Source: Eubacterium sp.
GTDB taxonomy: Bacteria > Bacillota > Clostridia > Oscillospirales > Acutalibacteraceae
DNA: 14,039 bases
Assembly (NCBI GenBank): GCA_024696725.1
Contig: JAILGO010000059.1
Span: forward strand, 1 to 14,039
Direction of reading: 5' to 3'
A model generated the notes under the pieces. It was not told the DNA's origin and did no database searches. It saw nothing but the letters and a program-made list of their open reading frames with translations. The translations under genes and the position numbers were made by a program. Of the stretch, positions 4,096-14,039 are shown piece by piece. How positions within the stretch are numbered: the stretch's first letter is position 1; every line of letters starts with the position of its first letter.

Positions 4096-4117
4096 GTTAA
4101 CCTCAGGTCTTTTTTTT
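4083..4117. terminator. Bidirectional intrinsic terminator between convergent genes
   Basis: An 8-bp GC-containing stem, GACCTGAG (4089-4096) with CTCAGGTC (4102-4109), and a 5-base loop TTAAC. It is flanked by six A on the left (4083-4088) and eight T on the right (4110-4117), so it has a U tract in either direction. The stop of the plus-strand HAD gene (4093-4095) is within the stem, and the stop of the minus-strand GH13 gene (4116-4118) overlaps the T tract. Confidence 0.92.
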
Positions 4118-6017
4118 ATTTTACCTTATAGATATTGCCCTCGAACGGGCGGAGCTTTTCACTTTTGTCGTTTCTTGTTGAAAGAAGAAGCTCCATCCTG
4201 CTGACGTCGAGCGGACGATTAAGCTGTTCTCTTCCGAGGTTAAGCTCAACATAGTAAAGCTCGCCGTTATATTCGCGGTAATAGCAGTAGAGCGGAGCGG
4301 AGATTCCGTTAGCTATTATAAACTCGCCGTAAACGAGCGCCTTATGCTCCTTACGCAGCGCTATAACTTTCTTATAGAATTCAAGCACGGAGTCGGGGTT
4401 CTTCGCTTCGTCCTCGGCGTTATATTTTCTGTAATCGGGAGTAATCTTCATCCACGGAGTACCCGTAGTAAAGCCCGCGTTTTCGCTGTCGGACCAATGG
4501 AACGGAGTTCTCGAATTATCACGCGTTCCCGTCTGTACGACGAACATCGCCTTTTCGGGCTTCTTACCCTTTTCAATCATTTCGTTATACTTACCGACAG
4601 CCTCGCGGTCGTCGATATCGTCGATTGAATCGAACTTTCCGTTACCCATTGAAATTTCCTGTCCCTGATAGATATAAGGCGTTCCTCTCAGAGTCATTTC
4701 TATAAGTCCGCAAACCTTAGAAATATCCTCGCGGTACGCGCCCGTCTTGTCTACCTTAGCGACGATACGCGGATTATCGTGGTTTTCAAAGAAAACGGTC
4801 GGCCAGCAGTGATTCGTAAGGTTAGTCTGGAAGCGCTCAAACTCAAGCATAACCTTATATAAATCGAATTCGTAGTAATCGTAATTAGTGTGGCCCTGAT
4901 TGATAAGAAAGTCGAAATTAAAGATTGTATCGAGCTCCTTACGGTAGTCGGCGGTAAGCATTTTAGTCATCTCGATACCTGCGCCGCCGCATTCGCCGAC
5001 GGTGTATACGTCGTAGTTACCGAAGGACTTTTCGCGCATTTCGGCAAGATATTCATGAAGCCTCGGACCGTAGAAATAGAATTCAGCGCCCTTGTAGCCC
5101 GTAAGCATTCCGAGGAAGGAGTTAGCCTCGGGAAGTCCCTTAACCTTAGAAATGAAGTTAATAACATCCATTCTGAAGCCGTCGACTCCCTTGTCGAGCC
5201 ACCAGTTCATCATTGAATAGACCTCTTCCCTTACCTTCTCGTTTTCCCAGTTCAAATCCATCTGCTTCTTCGAGAAAAGGTGAAGCGCCCATTGATTTAC
5301 GCTTTCGTAATAATTCCACGCGGGACCGCCGAAAAGGCTAATCCAGTTATTGGGAGGAGTAACGCCCTTATCCGTTGCGTCGCGCCAGAGATAATAATCG
5401 TGGTACGGGTTATCCTTCGACTTTTGCGCCTCTTTAAACCACTCGTGCTCGTCGCTTGTATGGTTTACAACGAGGTCTACGATAAGCTTCATACCGCGCG
5501 AATGGATTTCCTCAAGAAGGAGGTCGAAATCCTCCATCGTGCCGAACTCATCCATAATTTTCTTATAGTCGCGGATATCGTAGCCGTTGTCGTCGTTAGG
5601 CGAATCATAAAACGGAGAGCACCAGATTGCGGTAACGCCAAGCTCCTGAAGATAGTCGAGCTTAGAGCGGATACCGTTTAAATCGCCAATTCCGTCGCCG
5701 TTGCTGTCACAGAAGGAACGGGGATAAATCTGATAGATTACGGCTTCCTTCCACCATTTTTCGCTCATCTCGCCCTCGTCGGTAATAACAGAGTTCTTTT
5801 CGAGATTGAAAAGGTCGCAGATAGTCTGAAGCGTCTTACGGTTAAGAAGTCCCGCGGTAAGCGGAGCGAGCGCGCCGAGCTTCATCTTTCCGATAGCGCC
5901 GGTTTCAATAAGCGAGGTCGGCAGCCTGAACGCAAGCATAAGTTTTTCAAGCATATCCTTAGCCATGGGATTTTCCATAGCTTCTTTAATTTTTGTGTTT
6001 AGCGTTATTTTTTCCAT
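4116..6017 (-). CDS. malL: GH13 alpha-glucosidase (oligo-1,6-glucosidase type) with an extra N-terminal module
   Basis: A 633-residue GH13 enzyme, expected to hydrolyse short alpha-glucosides in the cytoplasm. The barrel starts at WWKEAVIYQIYPRSF (about residue 88) and keeps region I (DLVVNHTSDEH), region II GFRMDVINF with nucleophile D284, region III YTVGECGG with acid/base E342, and region IV FFENHDNPR with D414. The Val after the nucleophile is what alpha-1,6-preferring members carry, so isomalto-oligosaccharides are the likelier substrate; trehalose-6-phosphate hydrolase or dextran glucosidase are alternatives. The usual family protein begins at the WW motif; here about 85 extra residues precede it, with helical, non-secretory character. 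I chose ATG 6017 because AGAGGTGAT (6022-6030) lies just ahead; a GTG at 6026 falls inside that ribosome site. The gene has its own promoter and ends in the shared terminator. The symbol is by similarity only. Confidence 0.92.
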   Translation of the reverse strand: MEKITLNTKIKEAMENPMAKDMLEKLMLAFRLPTSLIETGAIGKMKLGALAPLTAGLLNRKTLQTICDLFNLEKNSVITDEGEMSEKWWKEAVIYQIYPRSFCDSNGDGIGDLNGIRSKLDYLQELGVTAIWCSPFYDSPNDDNGYDIRDYKKIMDEFGTMEDFDLLLEEIHSRGMKLIVDLVVNHTSDEHEWFKEAQKSKDNPYHDYYLWRDATDKGVTPPNNWISLFGGPAWNYYESVNQWALHLFSKKQMDLNWENEKVREEVYSMMNWWLDKGVDGFRMDVINFISKVKGLPEANSFLGMLTGYKGAEFYFYGPRLHEYLAEMREKSFGNYDVYTVGECGGAGIEMTKMLTADYRKELDTIFNFDFLINQGHTNYDYYEFDLYKVMLEFERFQTNLTNHCWPTVFFENHDNPRIVAKVDKTGAYREDISKVCGLIEMTLRGTPYIYQGQEISMGNGKFDSIDDIDDREAVGKYNEMIEKGKKPEKAMFVVQTGTRDNSRTPFHWSDSENAGFTTGTPWMKITPDYRKYNAEDEAKNPDSVLEFYKKVIALRKEHKALVYGEFIIANGISAPLYCYYREYNGELYYVELNLGREQLNRPLDVSRMELLLSTRNDKSEKLRPFEGNIYKVK

Positions 6018-6037
6018 AAATATCACCTCTGCGTTTT

Positions 6038-6066
6038 ATTATACCACACTTTAGCGTGCTGTTCAA
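6038..6066 (-). promoter_or_regulatory. Predicted sigma-70-type promoter of the GH13 gene
   Basis: On the minus strand a -35 box TTGAAC (6061-6066), a 17-base spacer and a perfect -10 TATAAT (6038-6043). The start of transcription should be near 6031, about 14 bases from the ATG at 6017, with the Shine-Dalgarno at the very start of the message. The spacer holds an imperfect inverted repeat (6045-6058), too weak to call an operator. Confidence 0.75.
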
Positions 6067-6137
6067 ATAAATTATTCAACGATTTTAAGGTATATATTTG
6101 TTTTCACAGAAAAATATTACAGTAAAATTTATTGAAA

Positions 6138-6155
6138 TTGACAAAATATTAACAA
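6138..6155. promoter_or_regulatory. Rex-like operator upstream of the hydrogenase operon
   Basis: The site reads TTGACAA (6138-6144), four bases AATA, then TTAACAA (6149-6155). The clostridial Rex box as I remember it is TTGTTAA-N4-TTAACAA, so 12 of 14 specified bases match, with the right half perfect. A further TTAACAA half-site follows at 6158-6164. Rex represses fermentation and hydrogenase genes when NADH is low, which fits an NADH-linked hydrogenase operon. The left half also contains TTGACA, a consensus -35, but no good -10 lies at the right distance. The rex gene is not in the window. Confidence 0.5.
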
Positions 6156-6179
6156 TTTTAACAAATACTCTGAAATAGC

Positions 6180-6207
6180 TTGCAATTTACATTAAATATG
6201 TTATTAT
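6180..6207 (+). promoter_or_regulatory. Predicted promoter of the hydrogenase operon
   Basis: A -35 box TTGCAA (6180-6185), a 16-base spacer and -10 TATTAT (6202-6207) preceded by TGT (6199-6201), an extended -10. It has the same architecture as the promoter at 2327-2354. The start of transcription should be near 6214, giving a leader of about 47 bases before the ATG at 6261. It lies 24 bases downstream of the Rex-like site. Confidence 0.6.
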
Positions 6208-6260
6208 TATATAGGTTTAAACTAACCGAAATAAATAAGGAATATAAGAGGTGTTTAATT

Positions 6261-6758
6261 ATGCAAAAGAAATTAAGCAAAATTCCGTTCAACGGCACAC
6301 CCGAGCAGGAGGCTAAGCTCAGAGCTGTCATCGCCGAGAATAAAGATGACCAGAGCCGCCTTATCGCAGTAATGCAGGAAGCTCAGGAAATCTACGGCTA
6401 CCTTCCGATGGAGGTACAGGAGATTATCGCCGAGGGTATGGGAGTTCCGCTTGAAAAGGTATTCGGCGTCGCTTCCTTCTACGCTCAGTTCTCTATGTCT
6501 CCGAAGGGCAAGTACAACATTTCGGTATGCTTAGGTACTGCCTGCTACGTTAAGGGCGCTCAGACTCTTCTTGAGGGACTTCAGGAAATGCTCGGTATCG
6601 GCGTAGACGAATGTACTGCCGACGGAAAGTTTTCTATCGAAGCCTGCCGCTGCATCGGAGCCTGCGGCTTAGGTCCCGTACTTACCGTTAACGACGAGGT
6701 TTACGGAAAGCTCAACGCTGACGACCTCGGAGATATTTTAAGAAAATACAACGCTTAA
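6261..6758 (+). CDS. hydC: NuoE-like [2Fe-2S] subunit of bifurcating [FeFe] hydrogenase (HydC/HndA type)
   Basis: A 165-residue NuoE/24-kDa-type protein: a helical N-terminal part (about 15-80, with IYGYLP and GVASFYAQFS typical of the family) and a thioredoxin-like C-terminal domain. The [2Fe-2S] ligands follow the family rule: C90-x4-C95 (CLGTAC) and C131-x3-C135 (CIGAC). In HydABC-type hydrogenases this subunit sits next to the flavin subunit and takes part in electron transfer between NADH and the iron-sulfur chain. The start is ATG 6261, preceded by AAGAGGTG (6246-6253); an upstream in-frame codon near 6180 is inside the promoter and not used. It is the first gene of the operon. Its partners hydB and hydA lie seven genes and more downstream, with the regulatory-looking cassette between them. 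Confidence 0.94.
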   Translation: MQKKLSKIPFNGTPEQEAKLRAVIAENKDDQSRLIAVMQEAQEIYGYLPMEVQEIIAEGMGVPLEKVFGVASFYAQFSMSPKGKYNISVCLGTACYVKGAQTLLEGLQEMLGIGVDECTADGKFSIEACRCIGACGLGPVLTVNDEVYGKLNADDLGDILRKYNA

Positions 6759-6767
6759 GGTACTTAT

Positions 6768-7121
6768 ATGACAATTAGTGAGATAAAAGAGCTACTCGGC
6801 GCAGAGGTGCTCTGTTGTGAGGAAAACATTAATAATTCCGTTTATTCAGCCTGCGGCTGCGACCTTATGAGCGACGTTCTCGCTTACGTTAAGGACCAGG
6901 CTGTGCTTCTTACGGGTCTCGTTAACCCTCAGGTAGTACGCACGGCTGTTATGATGGATATGGTTTGTATAGTATTTGTAAGGTCTAAAACGCCGAGCGA
7001 CGAAATGTTAAGGCTTGCCGAGGATAACGGTATCGTTATTATGAAAACGGACAAGCGCTTATACGAAGCTTGCGGTATCTTATATTCAAATAATCTTACC
7101 GGCGAGGCTCAAAAGGCATGA
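6768..7121 (+). CDS. Small DRTGG-domain protein, first of two in the hydrogenase operon
   Basis: A 117-residue single-domain protein. Residues 23-110 match what I know of DRTGG domains: an ACGCDLMSDVLAYV segment, a strand-turn LLTGLVNP, and a closing GIVIMKTDKRLYEACG corresponding to the usual IPVLSTxxDTFxTA end. DRTGG domains occur in phosphotransacetylase N-terminal regions and beside CBS domains, and as stand-alone proteins near clostridial hydrogenases; their ligand is unclear. C27 and C29 (ACGC) and the C16-C17 pair could be redox-active, but no known Fe-S spacing is complete. It starts 9 bases after hydC with a short AAGG overlapping the hydC stop, and its own stop overlaps the next start by 4 bases (ATGA 7118-7121). 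The domain call is fairly safe; the role is inferred from context only. Confidence 0.8.
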   Translation: MTISEIKELLGAEVLCCEENINNSVYSACGCDLMSDVLAYVKDQAVLLTGLVNPQVVRTAVMMDMVCIVFVRSKTPSDEMLRLAEDNGIVIMKTDKRLYEACGILYSNNLTGEAQKA

Positions 7122-7543
7122 GCGACGAGCTTGTATTCCACTTCGACATTGACGGAGACGACTTTACCTCCGCCGGTCAGGCGTCTGTACAAATCAAAAA
7201 AAATCTGCGTGCGCTCGGTATTCCGCCCGAAACGATTAGACGCGTTTCGATTGCAATGTATGAGGGCGAAATAAATATGGTCATTCATGCAGGAGGCGGC
7301 GAGGCTGACGTTATTATCAGCGAGGATTGTATTACAATTATTCTTGCCGACCGCGGACCGGGCATAAAAAACGTTGAGCAGGCAATGCAGGAAGGCTTTT
7401 CCACAGCCTCCGATAACGTGCGTTCCCTCGGCTTCGGCGCGGGAATGGGTCTGCCCAACATGAAAAGCTACACCGACGAAATGAAAATTGAAACTGAGGT
7501 CGGAGTAGGAACAACAGTAACAATGAAGGTTAAAATAGCTTAG
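7118..7543 (+). CDS. Stand-alone GHKL ATPase, RsbW/SpoIIAB anti-sigma-factor type
   Basis: A 141-residue GHKL-fold ATP-binding domain with nothing else attached. N box YEGEINMVIHA (about 48-58, with N53 as the Mg2+-binding Asn), G1 box DRGPGI (78-83) and G2 loop LGFGAGMGLPN (104-114) are all intact, so ATP binding or kinase activity is expected. RsbW and SpoIIAB proteins of this size hold a sigma factor or phosphorylate an STAS antagonist on Ser. No STAS protein, PP2C phosphatase or sigma factor is encoded in the window, so the partner is either elsewhere or one of the neighbours. It overlaps the upstream DRTGG gene by 4 bases and is followed after 9 bases by the HydS-like gene; I infer a signalling link to that protein. 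The fold is certain, the partner unknown. Confidence 0.88.
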   Translation: MSDELVFHFDIDGDDFTSAGQASVQIKKNLRALGIPPETIRRVSIAMYEGEINMVIHAGGGEADVIISEDCITIILADRGPGIKNVEQAMQEGFSTASDNVRSLGFGAGMGLPNMKSYTDEMKIETEVGVGTTVTMKVKIA

Positions 7544-7552
7544 TGTGATAAT

Positions 7553-8815
7553 ATGGATAGATATGAACATTCCGTTTTGCTCGACAAGACGAAATGTACG
7601 GGCTGCACGTCCTGTCTTAAGCACTGTCCTACGGAGGCTATAAGAATCAGCGACGGTCACGCCGTCATTAATGATTCGCGCTGTATCGACTGCGGTGAGT
7701 GTATAAGAATATGTCCTCATCAGGCTAAAAAGGCAGTTAGCGGTAAGCTTGACAATATGAAGCGCTTTAAGTATAAGATTGCGCTTCCGGCGCCGACTCT
7801 TTACGGTCAGTTCGACAATCTTGACGATATCGACTACGTGCTTGACGGACTTAAAAAAATAGGCTTCGACGACGTTTATGAGGTTGCCAAGGCGGCAGAG
7901 CTTGTATCGGCATATACGAGAATGTACCTTAAAACCGAAGGAATTAAGAAGCCGCTTATAAGTTCCGCGTGTCCCGTCGTCGTAAGGCTGATTGAGCTTC
8001 GTTTTCCGCTTCTTGCGGAGAATATAATACACATGCTGCCGCCGATGGAGGTTGCGGCAAGGCTTGCAAAGGAACGCGCTCTTAAGGAGCATCCCGAATT
8101 CAAGCCCGAGGAAATAGGCGTATGCTTCATTTCCCCGTGTCCCGCGAAGGTCAGCTACGTTAAGAACGGCTTTGCCGACTACAAGAGTCAGGTCGACGAG
8201 GTAGTATCCATTAAGGATATCTACTTCCTTCTTATAAATGAAATGTCGCACGGAAGCGATATTGAAACGCTTTGCGAATCGGGTATTATCGGAATCGGCT
8301 GGGCGAGCTCAGGCGGTGAAGCTACGGCGATATTCAACGAGAATTTTCTCGCCGCCGACGGAATCGAAAACGTTATTCACGTTCTTGAACAGGTTGAAAA
8401 CGGAAATATTCCGACGCTTGAATTCATTGAGCTTAACGCCTGTCCCGGCGGCTGCGTCGGAGGCGTTATGGCTATGCAGAATCCGTTTATAGCTAAAGCA
8501 AGGCTTCAGTCGTTAAGACACAGTCTTCCCGTATCGCAGAATTTTATAGACAACTCGAACGATTACATTCCCGAGGGATATTTATTTAACGAGCTTCCCC
8601 AGTACAAGCCGATAACGAGGCTTTCGGACAGCATAGTTGAAAGTATGAGAATGCTCGCGGACATTCAGAAGCTGCGTGAATCGCTTCCCGGTATCGACTG
8701 CGGAGCGTGCGGCGCGCCGACCTGCAGAGCCTTCGCCGAGGACGTAATCAGAAAAAGAGTAAGTCCCGACGGCTGTGTAATACTCACGGCTAAAAGGGCT
8801 GAGGGTGAGAAATAA
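7553..8815 (+). CDS. hydS: HydS-like putative sensory [FeFe] hydrogenase without PAS domain
   Basis: 420 residues in three parts. First, two [4Fe-4S] ferredoxin motifs (C15, C18, C21, C25 and C44, C47, C50, C54). Second, an H-cluster domain about 72-335. Third, a C-terminal four-Cys motif C383-x2-C386-x4-C391-x16-C408 of the type seen in PF04060 Fe-S domains. H-cluster loops: L1 reads ISSACPVV, with Ala139 where catalytic enzymes have the proton-relay Cys and C140 kept as cluster ligand. L2 is SPCPAK with C196 and K199. L3 is ELNACPGGCVGG with C297 and C301. Ala at the relay position is the mark of putative sensory hydrogenases such as Thermotoga HydS; that protein ends in a PAS domain, which is absent here, so this one resembles the PAS-less group described from Thermoanaerobacter. 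I expect slow H2 chemistry and a sensing or redox-relay role. Start ATG 7553 has only a weak ribosome site. Confidence 0.88.
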   Translation: MDRYEHSVLLDKTKCTGCTSCLKHCPTEAIRISDGHAVINDSRCIDCGECIRICPHQAKKAVSGKLDNMKRFKYKIALPAPTLYGQFDNLDDIDYVLDGLKKIGFDDVYEVAKAAELVSAYTRMYLKTEGIKKPLISSACPVVVRLIELRFPLLAENIIHMLPPMEVAARLAKERALKEHPEFKPEEIGVCFISPCPAKVSYVKNGFADYKSQVDEVVSIKDIYFLLINEMSHGSDIETLCESGIIGIGWASSGGEATAIFNENFLAADGIENVIHVLEQVENGNIPTLEFIELNACPGGCVGGVMAMQNPFIAKARLQSLRHSLPVSQNFIDNSNDYIPEGYLFNELPQYKPITRLSDSIVESMRMLADIQKLRESLPGIDCGACGAPTCRAFAEDVIRKRVSPDGCVILTAKRAEGEK

Positions 8816-9142
8816 ATGACAGTAAACGATTTAATTAATGAATTCGGCTTTGAGGCGCTGAGCCTTCCCGACGGCGAGAGAGAGATTAACGGCGCCTATA
8901 TCGGCGACCTTCTCAGCTGGGTTATGGGACGCGCTCAGGCTGATAACGCGTGGATAACGATTATGAGCAACATTAACGTTATCGCCGTTGCCTCGCTCGC
9001 CGACGTCGCCTGCGTAATTCTTGCCGAGGGCGTTAAGCTTGACGAGGAAATAATCGAAGCAGCGCGTCAGAAGGATATTAACGTTTTGACTTCTCCCCTA
9101 CCCGCTTATGAAACAGCAGAAAAGCTGTTCGGAAGAATATAA
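8816..9142 (+). CDS. Second small DRTGG-domain protein
   Basis: A 108-residue protein with the same fold type as the product at 6768-7121 but divergent: an N-terminal LSWVMGRAQ segment, the central strands NVIAVASLADVACVILAEG (54-72) and the closing INVLTSPLPAYETAEKL (90-105), the clearest DRTGG-type ending in the window. It has one cysteine (C66), unlike its Cys-rich paralogue, so the two are not interchangeable copies. The start codon follows the HydS-like stop directly (TAA-ATG), with GAGGGTGA (8801-8808) upstream as ribosome site, and its stop abuts the next ATG in the same manner. This packing suggests that the HydS-like protein, this protein and the PHP protein are made together. Function unknown; a nucleotide or protein-binding role is a guess. 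Confidence 0.78.
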   Translation: MTVNDLINEFGFEALSLPDGEREINGAYIGDLLSWVMGRAQADNAWITIMSNINVIAVASLADVACVILAEGVKLDEEIIEAARQKDINVLTSPLPAYETAEKLFGRI

Positions 9143-9865
9143 ATGAAAAGATATTATTACGATTTACATATTCACTCCTGTCTTTCTCCCTGCGCCGACA
9201 ACGACAACACGCCGAACAATATCGCAGGGATGGCGAAAATATGCGGACTTGATATCGTCGCTCTTACGGACCACAATTCCTGTAAAAACTGTCCGGCCTT
9301 CTTTGAGGCAGCGGAGCGTTACGGAATTATCCCTGTAGCGGGAATTGAGCTTACGACGAGCGAGGATATACACGTTATCTGTCTTTTCGAGGAGCTGAGC
9401 GAGGCTATGCGCTTTGACTCGGATTTACAGAGCCACAGAACGCTCGCGCAAAACAGGACAGACATTTTCGGAGAGCAGTTAATACTTGACGGACGTGACG
9501 AGGTTATCGGAAGCGACCCTTACGTTCTCTCATTCGCAACGGATATTTCTCTTGAGGACGTACCCGCGCTTGTTGAAGGCTACGGAGGTATATGCTACCC
9601 CGCCCACATAGACCGTCAGTCAAACGGCGTTATCGCAACGCTCGGTACCTTCCCCGAAACGCCATACTTCGCGAACGTTGAAATCAACAGAAGCGAAAGC
9701 ATTGAAGAATATGTAAAGCGCTACTCTCTCCAGGATAAGAGAATAATCGTCAGCTCAGACGCCCATTGTCTTACCGATATGAGAGATAAGGAAAACTACT
9801 TTGAGCTTGACTGCGAAAACGCTTCGCAGGTAAGGCACAGGCTTTTTGAAGAACTTAGAAAATGA
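9143..9865 (+). CDS. PHP-domain metal-dependent phosphoesterase
   Basis: A 240-residue PHP (polymerase and histidinol phosphatase) protein. The metal-site blocks are complete: DLHIHS (D7, H9, H11), TDHN (D43, H44), GIELTT (E69), IHVICLF (H77), PAHIDR (H155, D157) and SSDAH (D206, H208). Such enzymes hydrolyse phosphomonoesters, nucleotides or small phosphodiesters with a trinuclear metal centre. Two cysteine pairs flank the first metal motifs, C13-x3-C17 (CLSPC) and C47-x2-C50 (CKNC), placing four thiols near the active site; I believe this is shared by clostridial relatives found beside hydrogenases. The gene abuts the preceding DRTGG gene (TAA-ATG) and overlaps the next ATPase gene by 4 bases. 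I infer that it makes or removes a phosphate in the HydS pathway; substrate unknown. Confidence 0.9.
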   Translation: MKRYYYDLHIHSCLSPCADNDNTPNNIAGMAKICGLDIVALTDHNSCKNCPAFFEAAERYGIIPVAGIELTTSEDIHVICLFEELSEAMRFDSDLQSHRTLAQNRTDIFGEQLILDGRDEVIGSDPYVLSFATDISLEDVPALVEGYGGICYPAHIDRQSNGVIATLGTFPETPYFANVEINRSESIEEYVKRYSLQDKRIIVSSDAHCLTDMRDKENYFELDCENASQVRHRLFEELRK

Positions 9866-10395
9866 AAGAGTTATCGTTAAACATACTTGACGTAACCGAA
9901 AACTCCGTAAAGGCGGGAGCTACGCTTACCGAAATTATTATCGAGGAAAGCGACGATACGCTTAAGCTGACAATAAGAGACGACGGCTGCGGTATGGACG
10001 AAGGAACCGTTAAATCGGTTACCGACCCGTTCTATACTACGAGGACGACGCGAAAGGTCGGAATGGGTATCCCCCTACTTAAGCTCGCCGCAGAGCAGAC
10101 GGACGGAAGCTTTAATATAAGCTCGTCAGTCGGCGAAAAGCACGGAACAGAGGTTACGGCGGTATTCAATAAAAAGCATATTGATTTTACTCCTCTCGGC
10201 GACGTAACAGCTACGCTTACAACGCTGATTCAGGGACATCCAGACACGGATTTTCTTTTCCGTCACACAGTCGGCGGAAACGAGATTACCCTCGACACGA
10301 GAGAGGTAAGAGCCGTACTCGACGGAGTTCCGCTCGACACCTATGAGGTTATAAAGTGGATTGAGGAGTACGTAAACGAGCAATACGGACAGTAA
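9862..10395 (+). CDS. Histidine-kinase-like ATPase without a phosphoacceptor domain
   Basis: A 177-residue protein that begins directly with a GHKL ATPase: N box LNILDVTENSVKAGA (6-20, with N14), G1 box RDDGCGM (39-45), F box DPFYTT (55-60) and G2 VGMGIPLL (66-73). There is no HisKA or other His-box domain, no transmembrane segment and no PAS domain, so it cannot autophosphorylate like a classic sensor kinase unless the acceptor is on another protein. After the ATPase fold ends near 107, about 70 residues follow (DFTPLGD to the end) that I do not recognise. It overlaps the PHP gene by 4 bases and ends the cassette inserted between hydC and hndB. It differs clearly from the RsbW-like ATPase upstream, so the cassette encodes two distinct ATPases. 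Confidence 0.85.
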   Translation: MKELSLNILDVTENSVKAGATLTEIIIEESDDTLKLTIRDDGCGMDEGTVKSVTDPFYTTRTTRKVGMGIPLLKLAAEQTDGSFNISSSVGEKHGTEVTAVFNKKHIDFTPLGDVTATLTTLIQGHPDTDFLFRHTVGGNEITLDTREVRAVLDGVPLDTYEVIKWIEEYVNEQYGQ

Positions 10396-10450
10396 GGCTG
10401 TCAGTATATAAAATGTTAAAAAATATTTTAGAATAAGGAAGGAAAACGCT

Positions 10451-10822
10451 ATGAAATCACTCGCTGAACTTCAGGCAATCAGAGAAAAGATGAGGGACAA
10501 GGTTGTTCTTCGCGAAGGCTCAAACGACGTGCGTGTAGTAGTAGGCATGGCGACCTGCGGTATTGCGGCAGGCGCGCGTCCCGTTCTTAACGCATTCGTT
10601 GAGGAGGTTAACGCTAAAAATTTAACAGACCGCGTTACCGTATCACAGACAGGCTGTATCGGCATCTGCCAGTTTGAGCCCGTCGTAGAGGTTTTCGAGG
10701 CAGGTAAGGACAAGGTTACTTACGTTAAGATGACTGCTGAAAAAGCCAAGGAAGTTATTGAAAAGCACATTATAGGCGGCAAGGTTATTGCGGAATACAC
10801 CGTTGACAGAGCCAAGTTATAA
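10451..10822 (+). CDS. hndB: HndB-like thioredoxin-fold ferredoxin subunit of the hydrogenase
   Basis: A 123-residue thioredoxin-like [2Fe-2S] domain protein, the type named HndB in the NADP-reducing hydrogenase of Desulfovibrio fructosivorans and common in clostridial hydrogenase operons. A helical lead (1-25) is followed by VVVGMATCGIAAGARPV, QTGCIGICQFEP and the YVKMTAEKA segment typical of this family. Only three cysteines exist (C36, C69, C73), one short of a standard four-Cys [2Fe-2S] site; the missing one would precede C36. Either the cluster is lost or another residue binds. It resembles the first 100 residues of the hydB product next to it. A strong ribosome site AAGGAAGG (about 10436-10442) sits 8 bases before the ATG, after a 55-base gap that separates it from the regulatory cassette. 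Confidence 0.88.
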   Translation: MKSLAELQAIREKMRDKVVLREGSNDVRVVVGMATCGIAAGARPVLNAFVEEVNAKNLTDRVTVSQTGCIGICQFEPVVEVFEAGKDKVTYVKMTAEKAKEVIEKHIIGGKVIAEYTVDRAKL

Positions 10823-10838
10823 TATTGGAGGTTAAGTT

Positions 10839-12662
10839 ATGATTCGTTCACAAGTTCTTATCTGCGGCGGAACAGGCTGCACCTCATCGGGCAGTAAAAA
10901 GATTCACGCTGCTTTCGTGGAAAACCTCGAAAAGCACGGTCTTACCGATGAAATCAAGCTTGTTAAGACCGGATGCTTCGGTCTTTGCGCACTCGGTCCG
11001 GTCGTAATCGTTTACCCCGAGGGTACGTTCTACTCGATGGTTAAGCCCGAGGACGTTGCTGAAATCGTTGAAGAGCATCTTTTAAAGGGACGCGTTGTCG
11101 AGCGCCTTGTTTATAATGAAACGAGCGCTCCCGTTGAAGACCTTGACTCGCTCCATATCTCTCTTAACGATACCGACTTCTATAAGTCACAGCACCGTGT
11201 TGCGCTCAGAAACTGCGGCGTTATCGACCCCGAGAATATCGACGAGTATATCGCGATGGACGGTTACGCAGCACTCGGTAAGGTTCTTACCGAAATGAAG
11301 CCCGAGGACGTTATTGAGGTTATCAAGGCTTCGGGACTTCGCGGTCGCGGAGGCGGCGGCTTCCCGACAGGCTTCAAGTGGTCTCTCTGCGCTCCGAACA
11401 AGGCTGACCAGAAATACGTTGTATGTAACGCCGACGAGGGCGACCCGGGCGCGTTTATGGACCGTTCCGTTCTTGAGGGCGACCCGCATTGTATTATTGA
11501 GGCAATGGCTATCTGCGGCTATGCTATCGGTGCTACCGAGGGTTACGTTTACGTAAGAGCTGAGTATCCTATCGCTGTTGCAAGACTTCAGATTGCAATC
11601 AATCAGGCTAAAGAGTACGGTCTTTTAGGCAAAGACATCTTCGGCTCAGGCTTTGACTTCGACCTTCATATCCGTCTCGGCGCCGGCGCTTTCGTCTGCG
11701 GTGAAGAGACTGCTCTTATGCATTCAATCGAGGGTAACAGAGGCGAGCCCAAGCCCCGTCCCCCGTTCCCTGCACTTAAAGGTCTTTTCGGCAAGCCGAC
11801 CGTTGAAAACAATGTTGAGACCTTCGCTAACGTTCCCCAGATTATCCTTAAGGGCGCTGACTGGTTCGCTTCAATGGGTACCGAGCGTTCGAAGGGTACT
11901 AAGGTATTCGCTCTCGGCGGTAAGATTAAGCACACCGGTCTTGTTGAGGTTCCGATGGGTACTACCCTTCGCGAAATTATCTACAATATCGGCGGCGGCA
12001 TCCCGAACGGAAAGAAGTTCAAGGCTGCCCAGACCGGCGGTCCTTCGGGCGGATGTATTCCCGCTTCCCTTATTGATACAGAGATTGACTACGATAACCT
12101 CACAGCTATCGGCTGTATGATGGGCTCGGGCGGTCTTATCGTAATGGACGAGGATACCTGTATGGTTGATATCGCTAAGTTCTTCCTTAAGTTCACGGTT
12201 GACGAGAGCTGCGGTAAGTGTACGCCCTGCCGTGTAGGTACTAAGAGACTTCTCGAAATGCTTGAAAAGATTACAAGCGGAAAAGGCACTCTTGAGGACC
12301 TCGACAAACTTGAAGAGCTTTGCTACTACATTAAAAATAACTCTGCGTGCGGTCTCGGACAGACTGCTCCGAACCCGGTTCTCGCAACCCTCAAGTTCTT
12401 CAGAAACGAATATGAGGCTCACGTTCTCGAAAAGAAGTGTCCTGCAGGCGTTTGTAAAGACCTTCTTACCTTCACTATCGACAAGGATAAGTGTATCGGC
12501 TGCGGAATGTGCGCGAGAAACTGTCCCGCAGAGACAATACATAAGACTGATTACACGGCTCCCGGTCATAAGCTTCCTTCTTATGAGATTGACCCGGCTA
12601 AGTGTATCAAGTGCTCTGCTTGTATAAACAACTGTAAGTTCAAAGCAATCAGCTGTAAGTAA
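10839..12662 (+). CDS. hydB: NuoF-like NADH-binding flavin subunit of bifurcating [FeFe] hydrogenase (HydB/HndC type)
   Basis: 607 residues, full length. Order: thioredoxin-like [2Fe-2S] domain (C9, C14, C46, C50); NuoF-type FMN/NADH domain with GLRGRGGGGFPTG (167-179), CNADEGDPGAFMDRS (196-210) and CGEETAL (287-293); SLBB-like part; [4Fe-4S] site ESCGKCTPCR (C458, C461, C464) completed by C504; then two C-terminal [4Fe-4S] ferredoxin motifs (C552, C555, C558, C562 and C589, C592, C595, C599). In HydABC complexes this flavin subunit takes electrons from NADH and is the bifurcation site; the extra C-terminal ferredoxin domain distinguishes it from plain respiratory NuoF. It starts at ATG 10839 behind GGAGG (10827-10831), 16 bases after hndB. 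Whether the nucleotide is NAD or NADP cannot be told with certainty. Confidence 0.96.
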   Translation: MIRSQVLICGGTGCTSSGSKKIHAAFVENLEKHGLTDEIKLVKTGCFGLCALGPVVIVYPEGTFYSMVKPEDVAEIVEEHLLKGRVVERLVYNETSAPVEDLDSLHISLNDTDFYKSQHRVALRNCGVIDPENIDEYIAMDGYAALGKVLTEMKPEDVIEVIKASGLRGRGGGGFPTGFKWSLCAPNKADQKYVVCNADEGDPGAFMDRSVLEGDPHCIIEAMAICGYAIGATEGYVYVRAEYPIAVARLQIAINQAKEYGLLGKDIFGSGFDFDLHIRLGAGAFVCGEETALMHSIEGNRGEPKPRPPFPALKGLFGKPTVENNVETFANVPQIILKGADWFASMGTERSKGTKVFALGGKIKHTGLVEVPMGTTLREIIYNIGGGIPNGKKFKAAQTGGPSGGCIPASLIDTEIDYDNLTAIGCMMGSGGLIVMDEDTCMVDIAKFFLKFTVDESCGKCTPCRVGTKRLLEMLEKITSGKGTLEDLDKLEELCYYIKNNSACGLGQTAPNPVLATLKFFRNEYEAHVLEKKCPAGVCKDLLTFTIDKDKCIGCGMCARNCPAETIHKTDYTAPGHKLPSYEIDPAKCIKCSACINNCKFKAISCK

Positions 12663-12679
12663 GAAAGGAGAACTCAATT

Positions 12680-14039
12680 ATGAAAAAACTGATTAATTTA
12701 AAAATTAACGGCATCGCTGTTTCAGTTCCCGAGGGCTCCACTATTCTTGACGCAGCTCGCGCAACGGGTATTGAAATCCCCACGCTTTGCTTTATGAAGG
12801 ATAAAAACGAAATAGGCGCCTGCCGTATCTGCGTTGTTGAGGCTAACGAAGGCAGAGGCTTCCGTCAGGTTACAGCCTGCGTTTATCCCGTATCTGAGGG
12901 TATGGAGGTTCTTACAAACACCGAGAAGATTCAGAAGTCGAGAAGAACAACTCTCGAGCTCATTCTTTCGGTTCACGATAAGAGCTGCTTATCCTGTCAG
13001 CGTTCAACAAACTGTGAGCTTCAGAAGCTCTGCCGTGACTACGGCGTTGATATGACAAGCTTTGAAGGCGAGAAGCCGAAGTACGAAAAGGACTTCAGCA
13101 CTCCTCACCTTATCAGAGACAATAACAAGTGTATCCTTTGCAGACGCTGCGTTGCGGCTTGTAAAGAGCAGTTCGTAAGCGTTATCGGTCCGAACGACCG
13201 AGGCTTCGACACCTCTATCGGTCAGCCCTTCGCTGTTTCGCTCAACAACACTCCGTGTATCTCCTGCGGCCAGTGTACCGTAGTATGTCCTACGGGCGCT
13301 CTTGTTGAAAGAGACGACACCGACAAGGTATGGGACGCTCTTAACGACCCCGAAAAGCACGTTGTAGTTCAGACCGCTCCCGCTGTACGCGCTACTATCG
13401 GCGAGTGCTTCGGTCTTCCCATCGGCACTAACTGCGAGGGTAAGATGGTAGCAGGTCTCAGAAGACTCGGCTTCGATAAGGTATTCGATACCGATTTCGG
13501 CGCAGACCTTACAATCGTCGAGGAGGCAAGCGAGCTCGTAGAGAGAATCAAGAAGGGCGGCGTGCTTCCGATGATTACATCCTGCTCGCCCGGCTGGGTT
13601 AAGTTCTGTGAGTTTTATTATCCCGAGCTTCTTCCCCACCTTTCGAGCTGTAAGTCGCCTCAGCAGATGACCGGCGCGGTTATCAAGACCTACTATGCCG
13701 AGAAGATGGGCATCAACCCGAAGGATATCTTCGTAGTTTCAGTTATGCCGTGTACCGCAAAGAAGTTTGAGGTTACGCGCGATGACGAAAACGCTGCAAT
13801 CTTCCCCGACGTAGACGTTGCTCTTACAACCCGTGAGGCTGCAAGAATGATGGACAGACTCGGTATCAACTTTGCAAGCCTTCCGGACGAAGAATTTGAC
13901 AATCCGCTCGGCGACGACACAGGCGCTGCAGTTATCTTCGGCGCAACTGGCGGCGTTATGGAAGCTGCTGTTCGTACTGCAAACGCTTGGCTTAACGGCG
14001 CTAACGAGCCTATTGAGCTTGAGGCTGTAAGAGGTACCC
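12680..14039 (+). CDS. hydA: Catalytic [FeFe] hydrogenase subunit HydA/HndD, 3' end beyond the window
   Basis: 453 residues are visible. N-terminal plant-type [2Fe-2S] domain (C37, C48, C51, C67), His-Cys [4Fe-4S] motif (H99, C103, C106, C112), two [4Fe-4S] ferredoxin motifs (C151, C154, C157, C161; C193, C196, C199, C203), then the H-cluster domain from about 225. L1 reads MITSCSPGW with C302 and Ser303 where many enzymes have two cysteines. L2 is VMPCTAKKFE with C358 and K361. L3, with the last two H-cluster cysteines, lies outside. This architecture is that of the subunit that reduces protons with electrons from ferredoxin and NADH in the trimeric enzyme. ATG 12680 follows AAAGGAG (12664-12670). 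Maturases HydE, HydF and HydG are not in the window. Confidence 0.95.
   Translation, partial: MKKLINLKINGIAVSVPEGSTILDAARATGIEIPTLCFMKDKNEIGACRICVVEANEGRGFRQVTACVYPVSEGMEVLTNTEKIQKSRRTTLELILSVHDKSCLSCQRSTNCELQKLCRDYGVDMTSFEGEKPKYEKDFSTPHLIRDNNKCILCRRCVAACKEQFVSVIGPNDRGFDTSIGQPFAVSLNNTPCISCGQCTVVCPTGALVERDDTDKVWDALNDPEKHVVVQTAPAVRATIGECFGLPIGTNCEGKMVAGLRRLGFDKVFDTDFGADLTIVEEASELVERIKKGGVLPMITSCSPGWVKFCEFYYPELLPHLSSCKSPQQMTGAVIKTYYAEKMGINPKDIFVVSVMPCTAKKFEVTRDDENAAIFPDVDVALTTREAARMMDRLGINFASLPDEEFDNPLGDDTGAAVIFGATGGVMEAAVRTANAWLNGANEPIELEAVRGT

Follow-up and report, generated by a model that had tools for sequence, protein, structure and literature searches.

A conserved core of DRTGG, ATPase, HydS and PHP genes beside bifurcating hydrogenase and Rnf genes, and its possible role as a sensory relay

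The first 14,039 nucleotides of contig JAILGO010000059.1 of Eubacterium sp. (Acutalibacteraceae; GenBank assembly GCA_024696725.1), here called the window, carry the genes of the bifurcating hydrogenase HydABC, interrupted between hydC and hndB-hydB-hydA by six genes of the forward strand at 6768-10395, at the positions and on the strand given by an original prediction made from the sequence alone. Five of these genes form a core, in the order d1-h1-HydS-d2-PHP, that is conserved across many genomes and is accompanied by the sixth, h2; the set may be a sensory relay acting on enzymes of H2, ferredoxin and NADH metabolism. The genes, with their Pfam matches (E values), are as follows.

6768-7121, plus strand: d1, DRTGG protein 1 (DRTGG, 2.6e-7)
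7118-7543, plus strand: h1, SpoIIAB/RsbW-like stand-alone ATPase (PF13581, HATPase_c_2, 3.3e-11)
7553-8815, plus strand: HydS, group D (M2e)-like [FeFe] hydrogenase homologue without PAS domain (PF02906, Fe_hyd_lg_C, 2.5e-31; C-terminal FeS, PF04060, 1.3e-13)
8816-9142, plus strand: d2, DRTGG protein 2 (PF07085, 9.7e-8)
9143-9865, plus strand: PHP-domain enzyme (PF02811, 3.4e-11)
9862-10395, plus strand: h2, histidine kinase-type ATPase (PF02518, HATPase_c, 2.8e-13)
6264-6758, plus strand: neighbouring hydC, NuoE-like 2Fe-2S subunit (PF01257, 1.4e-48)
10451-10822, plus strand: neighbouring hndB-like gene (Pfam)
10839-12662, plus strand: neighbouring hydB (Pfam)
12680-14038, plus strand: neighbouring hydA, group A [FeFe] hydrogenase, open at the window end (PF02906, 9.3e-80)

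Four of the five internal junctions overlap or abut, as had been noted before (in gene order, a 4-nucleotide overlap, a 9-nucleotide gap, two junctions of 0 and another 4-nucleotide overlap). The Pfam scan covered the ten proteins above; among the matches listed, no NCBIfam model reached its cut-off for any of the six cassette proteins, and hydA matched NF040763 at 1.1e-205, under the cut-off, with a protein truncated by the window end.

Gene order was compared in a sample anchored on HydS, consisting of the window and 100 loci (of 107 rows, and from 42 family codes) that were fetched with flanks of at most 8 kb; profiles built from the window proteins were run against all six frames. HydS is present in all 101 loci by choice of the sample. 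The order d1-h1-HydS-d2-PHP is exact in 76 loci from 36 family codes, some of the misses being short contigs, and individual genes were found in 96 (h1), 90 (d2), 88 (d1), 87 (PHP) and 86 (h2) loci, along with hydC in 80, hydB in 78 and hndB in 76. The original prediction had taken the six genes as one unit, which we reject as given, because h2 mostly follows hydC (62 loci) or is absent (15), stands after PHP in 23 and lies on the other strand in one; direct PHP-h2 fusions in six loci count in favour of the six-gene unit. The real unit is the five-gene core plus h2. Among the 101 loci, only the window has a hydC that immediately precedes d1 and shares its strand. Since most of the others have it after PHP, hydC is the unusually placed gene of the window, although the same placing recurs in six other loci (L185, L216, L222, L227, L233 and L234).

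Across 249 genomes of the phylum, HydS-D was found in 102, the PHP subfamily in 101 (in one as fragments only) and h1 in 107, with HydS and h1 shared by 101 genomes, HydS and PHP by 96, h1 and PHP by 98, and all three by 95 (Fisher p <1e-53 for each pair, uncorrected for kinship), which bears out the expected strong co-occurrence of the cassette genes. At the thresholds used, PHP is a single match in 100 of its 101 genomes and h1 in 106 of 107. Four genomes have the set split between two places, with d1-d2-PHP-h2 at one (L145, L147, L148, L150) and h1-HydS on another contig (L064, L040, L062, L054). In a PHP-anchored scan of named genomes, the best 80 of at least 587 relatives add forms with HydS from 35 loci of Bacillota and from a single locus each of Chlorobiota, Sumerlaeota, Stahliibacteriota, Coatesiibacteriota, Bacteroidota and Myxococcota. 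That the six genes are mere neighbours without joint function, kept through operon inheritance, is highly improbable in view of this order kept over 36 family codes and several phyla and of the fusions between neighbours described below, even though gene order alone is no proof of interaction and the co-occurrence statistics ignore kinship.

The window HydS has two N-terminal [4Fe-4S] motifs, an H-domain with four H-cluster cysteines and a C-terminus with its own cluster motif, Cx2Cx4Cx16C; all 16 cysteines are at least 90% conserved in 93 relatives and invariant in 31 rows. Its positions corresponding to Cys299 and Met353 of CpI were read by motif and set against the description in PMC8163306: the former, before the first H-cluster ligand, is Ala (SSAC-P) and variable in relatives, and the latter is Ser (SPC), mostly Thr in relatives (consensus Thr-Pro-Cys). 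By these motifs, compared with the published description, HydS shows the features typical of group D (M2e) [FeFe] hydrogenases. Group D HydS is reported to be often encoded beside trimeric bifurcating hydrogenases (PMC8163306, PMC3561251), as it is in the window, where the adjoining genes were identified by Pfam. The Pfam scan found no PAS domain in the window HydS, in agreement with the original prediction; according to published descriptions, group D proteins normally lack one (PMC8163306, PMC13104023). In the 249 genomes, short HydS proteins matched at E 1e-132 to about 1e-54 (the window aside) and longer ones at 1e-43 and weaker.

Other HydS arrangements occur in the sample. One locus (L066, 10980-14664) has a group C HydS-PAS-histidine kinase with a sigma-54-type response regulator directly upstream of its group D-type cassette. 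Another (L040, 5899-7812) has a HydS-MCP chemotaxis-type fusion directly after h1-HydS. Four loci (L078, L079, L087 and L089) have HydS and one DRTGG gene beside hyd genes, without h1, PHP and h2; the genomes of these loci hold a fuller cassette elsewhere (L100, L088, L080 and L113).

The h1 protein matches the anti-sigma F model TIGR01925 at 1.2e-16, below the cut-off (60.8 of 135 bits), and the nearest solved structure to its family profile is SpoIIAB (1til, 1e-10). Its ATP-site motifs are kept (E49, N53, H57, D78-x-G-P-G and G105-F-G-A-G), the first three of which we take to match the catalytic box of SpoIIAB. The two DRTGG proteins have in common an invariant Asp, Ser and Thr (52 rows). 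In a comparison with ten outside DRTGG family rows from ten genomes, all seven that reach the Asp-x-x-Ser columns carry GAM or AAM there, and the Asp-x-x-Ser motif thus looks specific to the cassette proteins. Fold matches of the cassette DRTGG model are to DRTGG, HPr kinase N-terminal and Mur-ligase-type domains; a STAS-like fold was considered and set aside, as no STAS row is among the matches listed, which in itself does not exclude STAS, and matches of the DRTGG profile to designed "Pizza" proteins were discarded as an artefact, each single match being insignificant alone. In the PHP enzyme, H9, H11, D43, H44, E69, H77 and H155 are invariant and D206 and H208 nearly so (32 rows); these residues bind metal in the PHP family. 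Relatives of the PHP profile in the PDB are diverse, ranging from EndoQ to 2yb1. Within an otherwise conserved SPC-MTP stretch, the window PHP protein departs from its relatives by Asn22, a position occupied by Met in 99% of 79 of them. No HisKA phosphoacceptor domain was listed for h2 in the Pfam scan.

Fusions, judged by a single stop-free frame in 196 loci, join CBS domains to h1 (14), d1 to h1 (6), PHP to h2 (6), HydS to d2 (2) and h1 to HydS (1). Pfam confirmed four of the CBS-h1 fusions, the d1-h1 fusion of L063, the HydS-d2 fusion of L066 and the h1-HydS fusion of L120, while the PHP-h2 fusions rely on the stop-free frame. We read the fusions as a probable order of contacts: sensor with h1, d1 with h1, HydS with d2, and PHP with h2. 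A single-chain model of the L120 h1-HydS fusion has a predicted local distance difference test score (pLDDT) of 89.6 and a predicted template modelling score of 0.76, with the linker (151-154) below pLDDT 50; no docking is drawn from it. Frames labelled HydS-HATP2 in L066, L070 and L215 were rejected as cassette fusions: the first is the group C HydS-PAS-histidine kinase mentioned above (Pfam), and the other two were taken to be like it without a scan and left out of the counts.

The input part of the cassette appears to be exchangeable. Ten PHP places that lack an intact HydS alongside were inspected. In three (L143, L144, L146), the order is d1-h1-d2-PHP-h2 and h1 bears two CBS domains; two others (L149, L151) are cut by contig ends. 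Among 169 h1 places (one genome counted twice), 137 are beside HydS, 13 carry CBS, one has both, 15 have neither and three are cut off; the 13 with CBS comprise six from Chloroflexota, four from three genomes of the Bacillota phylum and three others. In a quick h1 tree of 166 rows, the sensor label needs 11 changes, where the minimum possible is three, and none of 200 shuffles is as low; starred branches force at least two changes for CBS, and one starred branch unites the CBS-carrying L143 with five HydS-type rows, although L143 is itself a long branch. In some relatives HydS appears to have been exchanged for CBS domains on h1. In three loci a CBS match stands upstream of d1 without being fused to h1 (L145, about 7 kb away, L154 and L217). 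The L120 fusion, and the fusion of CBS pairs to h1 in places without HydS, agree with the earlier proposal of a HydS-type input to an RsbW/SpoIIAB-like ATPase.

The enzymes beside the core vary as well. Of the 78 loci with hydB, 72 have it on the same strand (13 also with RnfC) and six divergently; three have Rnf without hydB, so that, as the original prediction had asked, loci without the structural hyd genes exist, and 20 show neither, nine of these being short contigs. Of the 11 full-flank loci without hydB or Rnf, L124 has a hydB that begins just beyond the fetched end, and in L097, L102 and L109 the contig of HydS also bears a hydB match, at a distance of about 9 kb. The core with Rnf and without hydB is found in L115, L118 and L121 (Rnf proteins identified by Pfam), plus Orenia L153. 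Ten downstream stretches were inspected. Seven had been selected because RnfC matched after hydA, and each of them holds rnfC, D, E, A and B in order, with rnfG detected in three; the other three, selected without RnfC, gave no rnf match. Neighbouring hyd and rnf clusters have been published for Tepidanaerobacter (PMC4374699). The core also precedes genes for HydB-type subunits, after which comes a NiFe hydrogenase in L167 and a molybdopterin enzyme in L165; HydABC relatives with such partners have been grouped as BfuABC (PMC9304861). The common factor looks like H2/ferredoxin/NADH traffic rather than hydrogenase as such.

These observations argue for a signalling relay with an exchangeable input rather than a set of hydrogenase subunits, because HydS-free forms, fusions and varied enzyme partners all occur, and a relay is favoured because the ATP motifs of h1, the cassette-specific DRTGG motif and the metal-site residues of PHP are kept. 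The reading we prefer, to which we give about an even chance, is that the cassette is a sensory relay tuning enzymes that exchange electrons among H2, ferredoxin and NADH. HydS would be the input, its H-cluster and iron-sulfur clusters reporting H2 or the supply of low-potential electrons; because HydS, unlike group C proteins, carries no output domain, the output must be a separate protein. The direct target of HydS would be h1, a SpoIIAB-like switch that binds ATP and is probably a protein kinase. In turn, h1 would modify or hold the two DRTGG proteins, which have the invariant Asp-x-x-Ser and Thr and are candidates for its substrates or for adaptors; the PHP enzyme would reverse or end the signal, and h2 may act nearest the enzyme complex, that is, HydABC here and Rnf or other HydB-containing complexes elsewhere. 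We infer the direction of signalling, the kinase and phosphatase activities, H2 as the ligand, and action on enzymes rather than on transcription. The original prediction is thus borne out in part; the counter-activity that it gave to PHP is hypothetical, though the metal-site residues are kept. A far more specific version, which we consider rather improbable in full, is a reversible bifurcation switch in which the SpoIIAB-like kinase, with an exchangeable HydS (H2/redox) or CBS (nucleotide-type) sensor, modifies the twin DRTGG proteins at Asp-x-x-Ser or Thr and PHP undoes the modification, DRTGG standing in for STAS and PHP for PP2C, so that HydABC, Rnf and other HydB-containing complexes are gated directly.

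One locus bears on the regulatory character of the set. In L142 (genome G035, 5530-13152), HydS and PHP are found only in pieces and h1 was not found, whereas hyd and rnf genes give full-length matches. A cassette broken in this way is what a dispensable regulator would be expected to show, though a sequencing error is possible too.

Several points weigh against a relay of this kind. The evidence for it is genomic (gene content, order, co-occurrence, fusions and conserved residues), and the fold matches of the DRTGG proteins are not to STAS. The 15 h1 places with neither HydS nor CBS imply that h1 need not have a recognised sensor, though one of them, L223, has HydS further off in the locus; conversely, the four loci with HydS and a single DRTGG gene lack h1 and PHP. 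The h1 tree behind the sensor exchange has 146 columns and many open forks, besides the long branch of L143. The C-terminal cluster of TamHydS, the group D protein of Thermoanaerobacter mathranii, is reported to be unresponsive to H2 (PMC13104023). Finally, hydB stands in 78 of the 101 loci, and a role centred on HydABC, or in assembly, is therefore possible.

An assembly or maturation set, in which chaperone-like GHKL ATPases with DRTGG and PHP proteins insert flavin or Fe-S clusters into HydB- or Rnf-type complexes, would account for this tight linkage to hydB and Rnf, and published accounts leave room for it: HydE of Acetobacterium woodii is possibly for assembly or signalling (PMC3315566), and HydD, HydP and HisK of Acetomicrobium mobile are assumed to serve maturation and/or regulation (PMC8880783). 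This alternative, already raised by the original prediction, is weakened by the exchange of the input part between HydS and CBS domains and by the nearness of h1 to an anti-sigma kinase. Moreover, hydB-type matches at E up to 1e-100, a threshold that may admit related NuoF proteins and inflate the count, are present in 220 of the 249 genomes versus any of HydS-D, PHP or h1 in at most 110, so that many genomes have hydB-type proteins without the cassette. We regard an assembly role as doubtful.

It is likewise unlikely, in our estimation, that the cassette sets hyd and rnf transcription through a partner switch in which h1 binds or phosphorylates a regulator encoded elsewhere. The resemblance of h1 to SpoIIAB and RsbW fits such a switch, as do Rex genes beside the core in 22 of the 101 loci, an OmpR-type regulator beside h1-HydS in L040, and the proposal of a role in transcription regulation for group D HydS (PMC8163306). 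Against it, the regulators within the fetched stretches differ from locus to locus, and Pfam found no DNA-binding, STAS or sigma-factor domain among the window cassette proteins. The classical RsbW-type switch of the original prediction fares no better, because no STAS, sigma factor or PP2C is among the ten scanned window proteins (Pfam; the rest of the genome was not searched). A Rex-like 18-base site with two mismatches lies at 6138-6155, upstream of hydC (a scan of the window allowing up to three mismatches gave two sites versus a mean of 0.86 in shuffles), and the Rex gene is on another contig of this genome. Sites with at most two mismatches occur in four of 98 upstream regions, the window included, with none in inside controls and 0.5 expected from shuffles; on this weak evidence, Rex control of the cassette is left as a lead. 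Matches to RseC and Rex profiles follow h2 in five loci (L084, L085, L090, L096, L098), with Pfam support for the RseC match in L085 and for the Rex match in L084; RseC is a protein associated with Rnf/Rsx.

That HydS is an extra catalytic or electron-delivering hydrogenase subunit with the other proteins as its helpers is very unlikely: its cluster and H-cluster cysteines are kept and HydG is encoded in the window genome, but HydS and the core stand beside Rnf without hydB in three loci, HydS-free cores exist, and the activity of TamHydS is reported to be low (PMC8163306).

Upstream of the operon, the window has two long minus-strand open reading frames, 774-2264 and 4116-6026, whose translations, judged by eye, have a glycoside hydrolase look (arabinofuranosidase-like and alpha-amylase-like).

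The proximity of HydS to kinases and hydABC was known. M2e HydS near kinases and bifurcating hydrogenases is in print (PMC3561251), and in a table of that paper the spacing from Cthe_0335 to Cthe_0342 fits HydS-d2-PHP-hydC-h2-hndB-hydB-hydA; a histidine kinase-like ATPase flanking TamHydS is also in print (PMC8163306). In one open-access library, no description was found of the DRTGG-ATPase-HydS-DRTGG-PHP core as a unit, nor of its sensor exchange, Rnf-only form, CBS form or fusions; the only paper retrieved there for DRTGG together with hydrogenase concerns a different DRTGG protein. Group D has been called putatively sensory, with the signalling route left open (PMC10407848, PMC13104023), and the cassette names a likely receiver, h1, and partners for the signal of these PAS-less proteins. 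The natural fusions and HydS-free CBS forms are ready test proteins. If the relay exists, many anaerobes would share a control of the H2/ferredoxin economy around HydABC, Rnf and related enzymes, with consequences for hydrogen metabolism in the gut and in syntrophy, and for biofuel strains.

Among known systems, TamHydS (PMC8163306, PMC13104023, PMC10407848), likened by description rather than by identity, has the domain plan of the window HydS, with no PAS domain, the C-terminal Cx2Cx4Cx16C motif, Met353 replaced by Ser/Thr and a residue other than Cys at the Cys299 position, and its gene is likewise near a trimeric bifurcating hydrogenase and a histidine kinase-like ATPase; the available portions of these accounts cover the enzyme and two flanking genes, and not a DRTGG-ATPase-HydS-DRTGG-PHP set. 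Sensory hydrogenases of group C, such as the TmHydS type with its PAS domain and kinase or MCP output, are related sensors, and proteins of this kind neighbour the cassette in L066 and L040; they carry their own output domain, which the cassette HydS does not. HydE of A. woodii and HisK of A. mobile, stand-alone histidine kinase-type ATP-binding proteins of hydrogenase operons reported not to be subunits (PMC3315566, PMC8880783, PMC9304861), probably correspond to h2, to which they are likened by description; in the portions of these operon accounts at hand, only h2 has a counterpart, and no h1, DRTGG or PHP protein is named. The pyrophosphatase of Clostridium perfringens (CBS-DRTGG region, PDB 3l2b and 3l31) has the DRTGG fold in common with the cassette and pairs it with CBS domains, as do the HydS-free forms, whereas the cassette DRTGG proteins stand alone and have Asp-x-x-Ser where other DRTGG domains have GAM or AAM. 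The anti-sigma kinases SpoIIAB and RsbW are stand-alone ATPases of the same type as h1, and their systems include a STAS antagonist, a sigma factor and a PP2C, in place of which the window cassette has DRTGG and PHP proteins.

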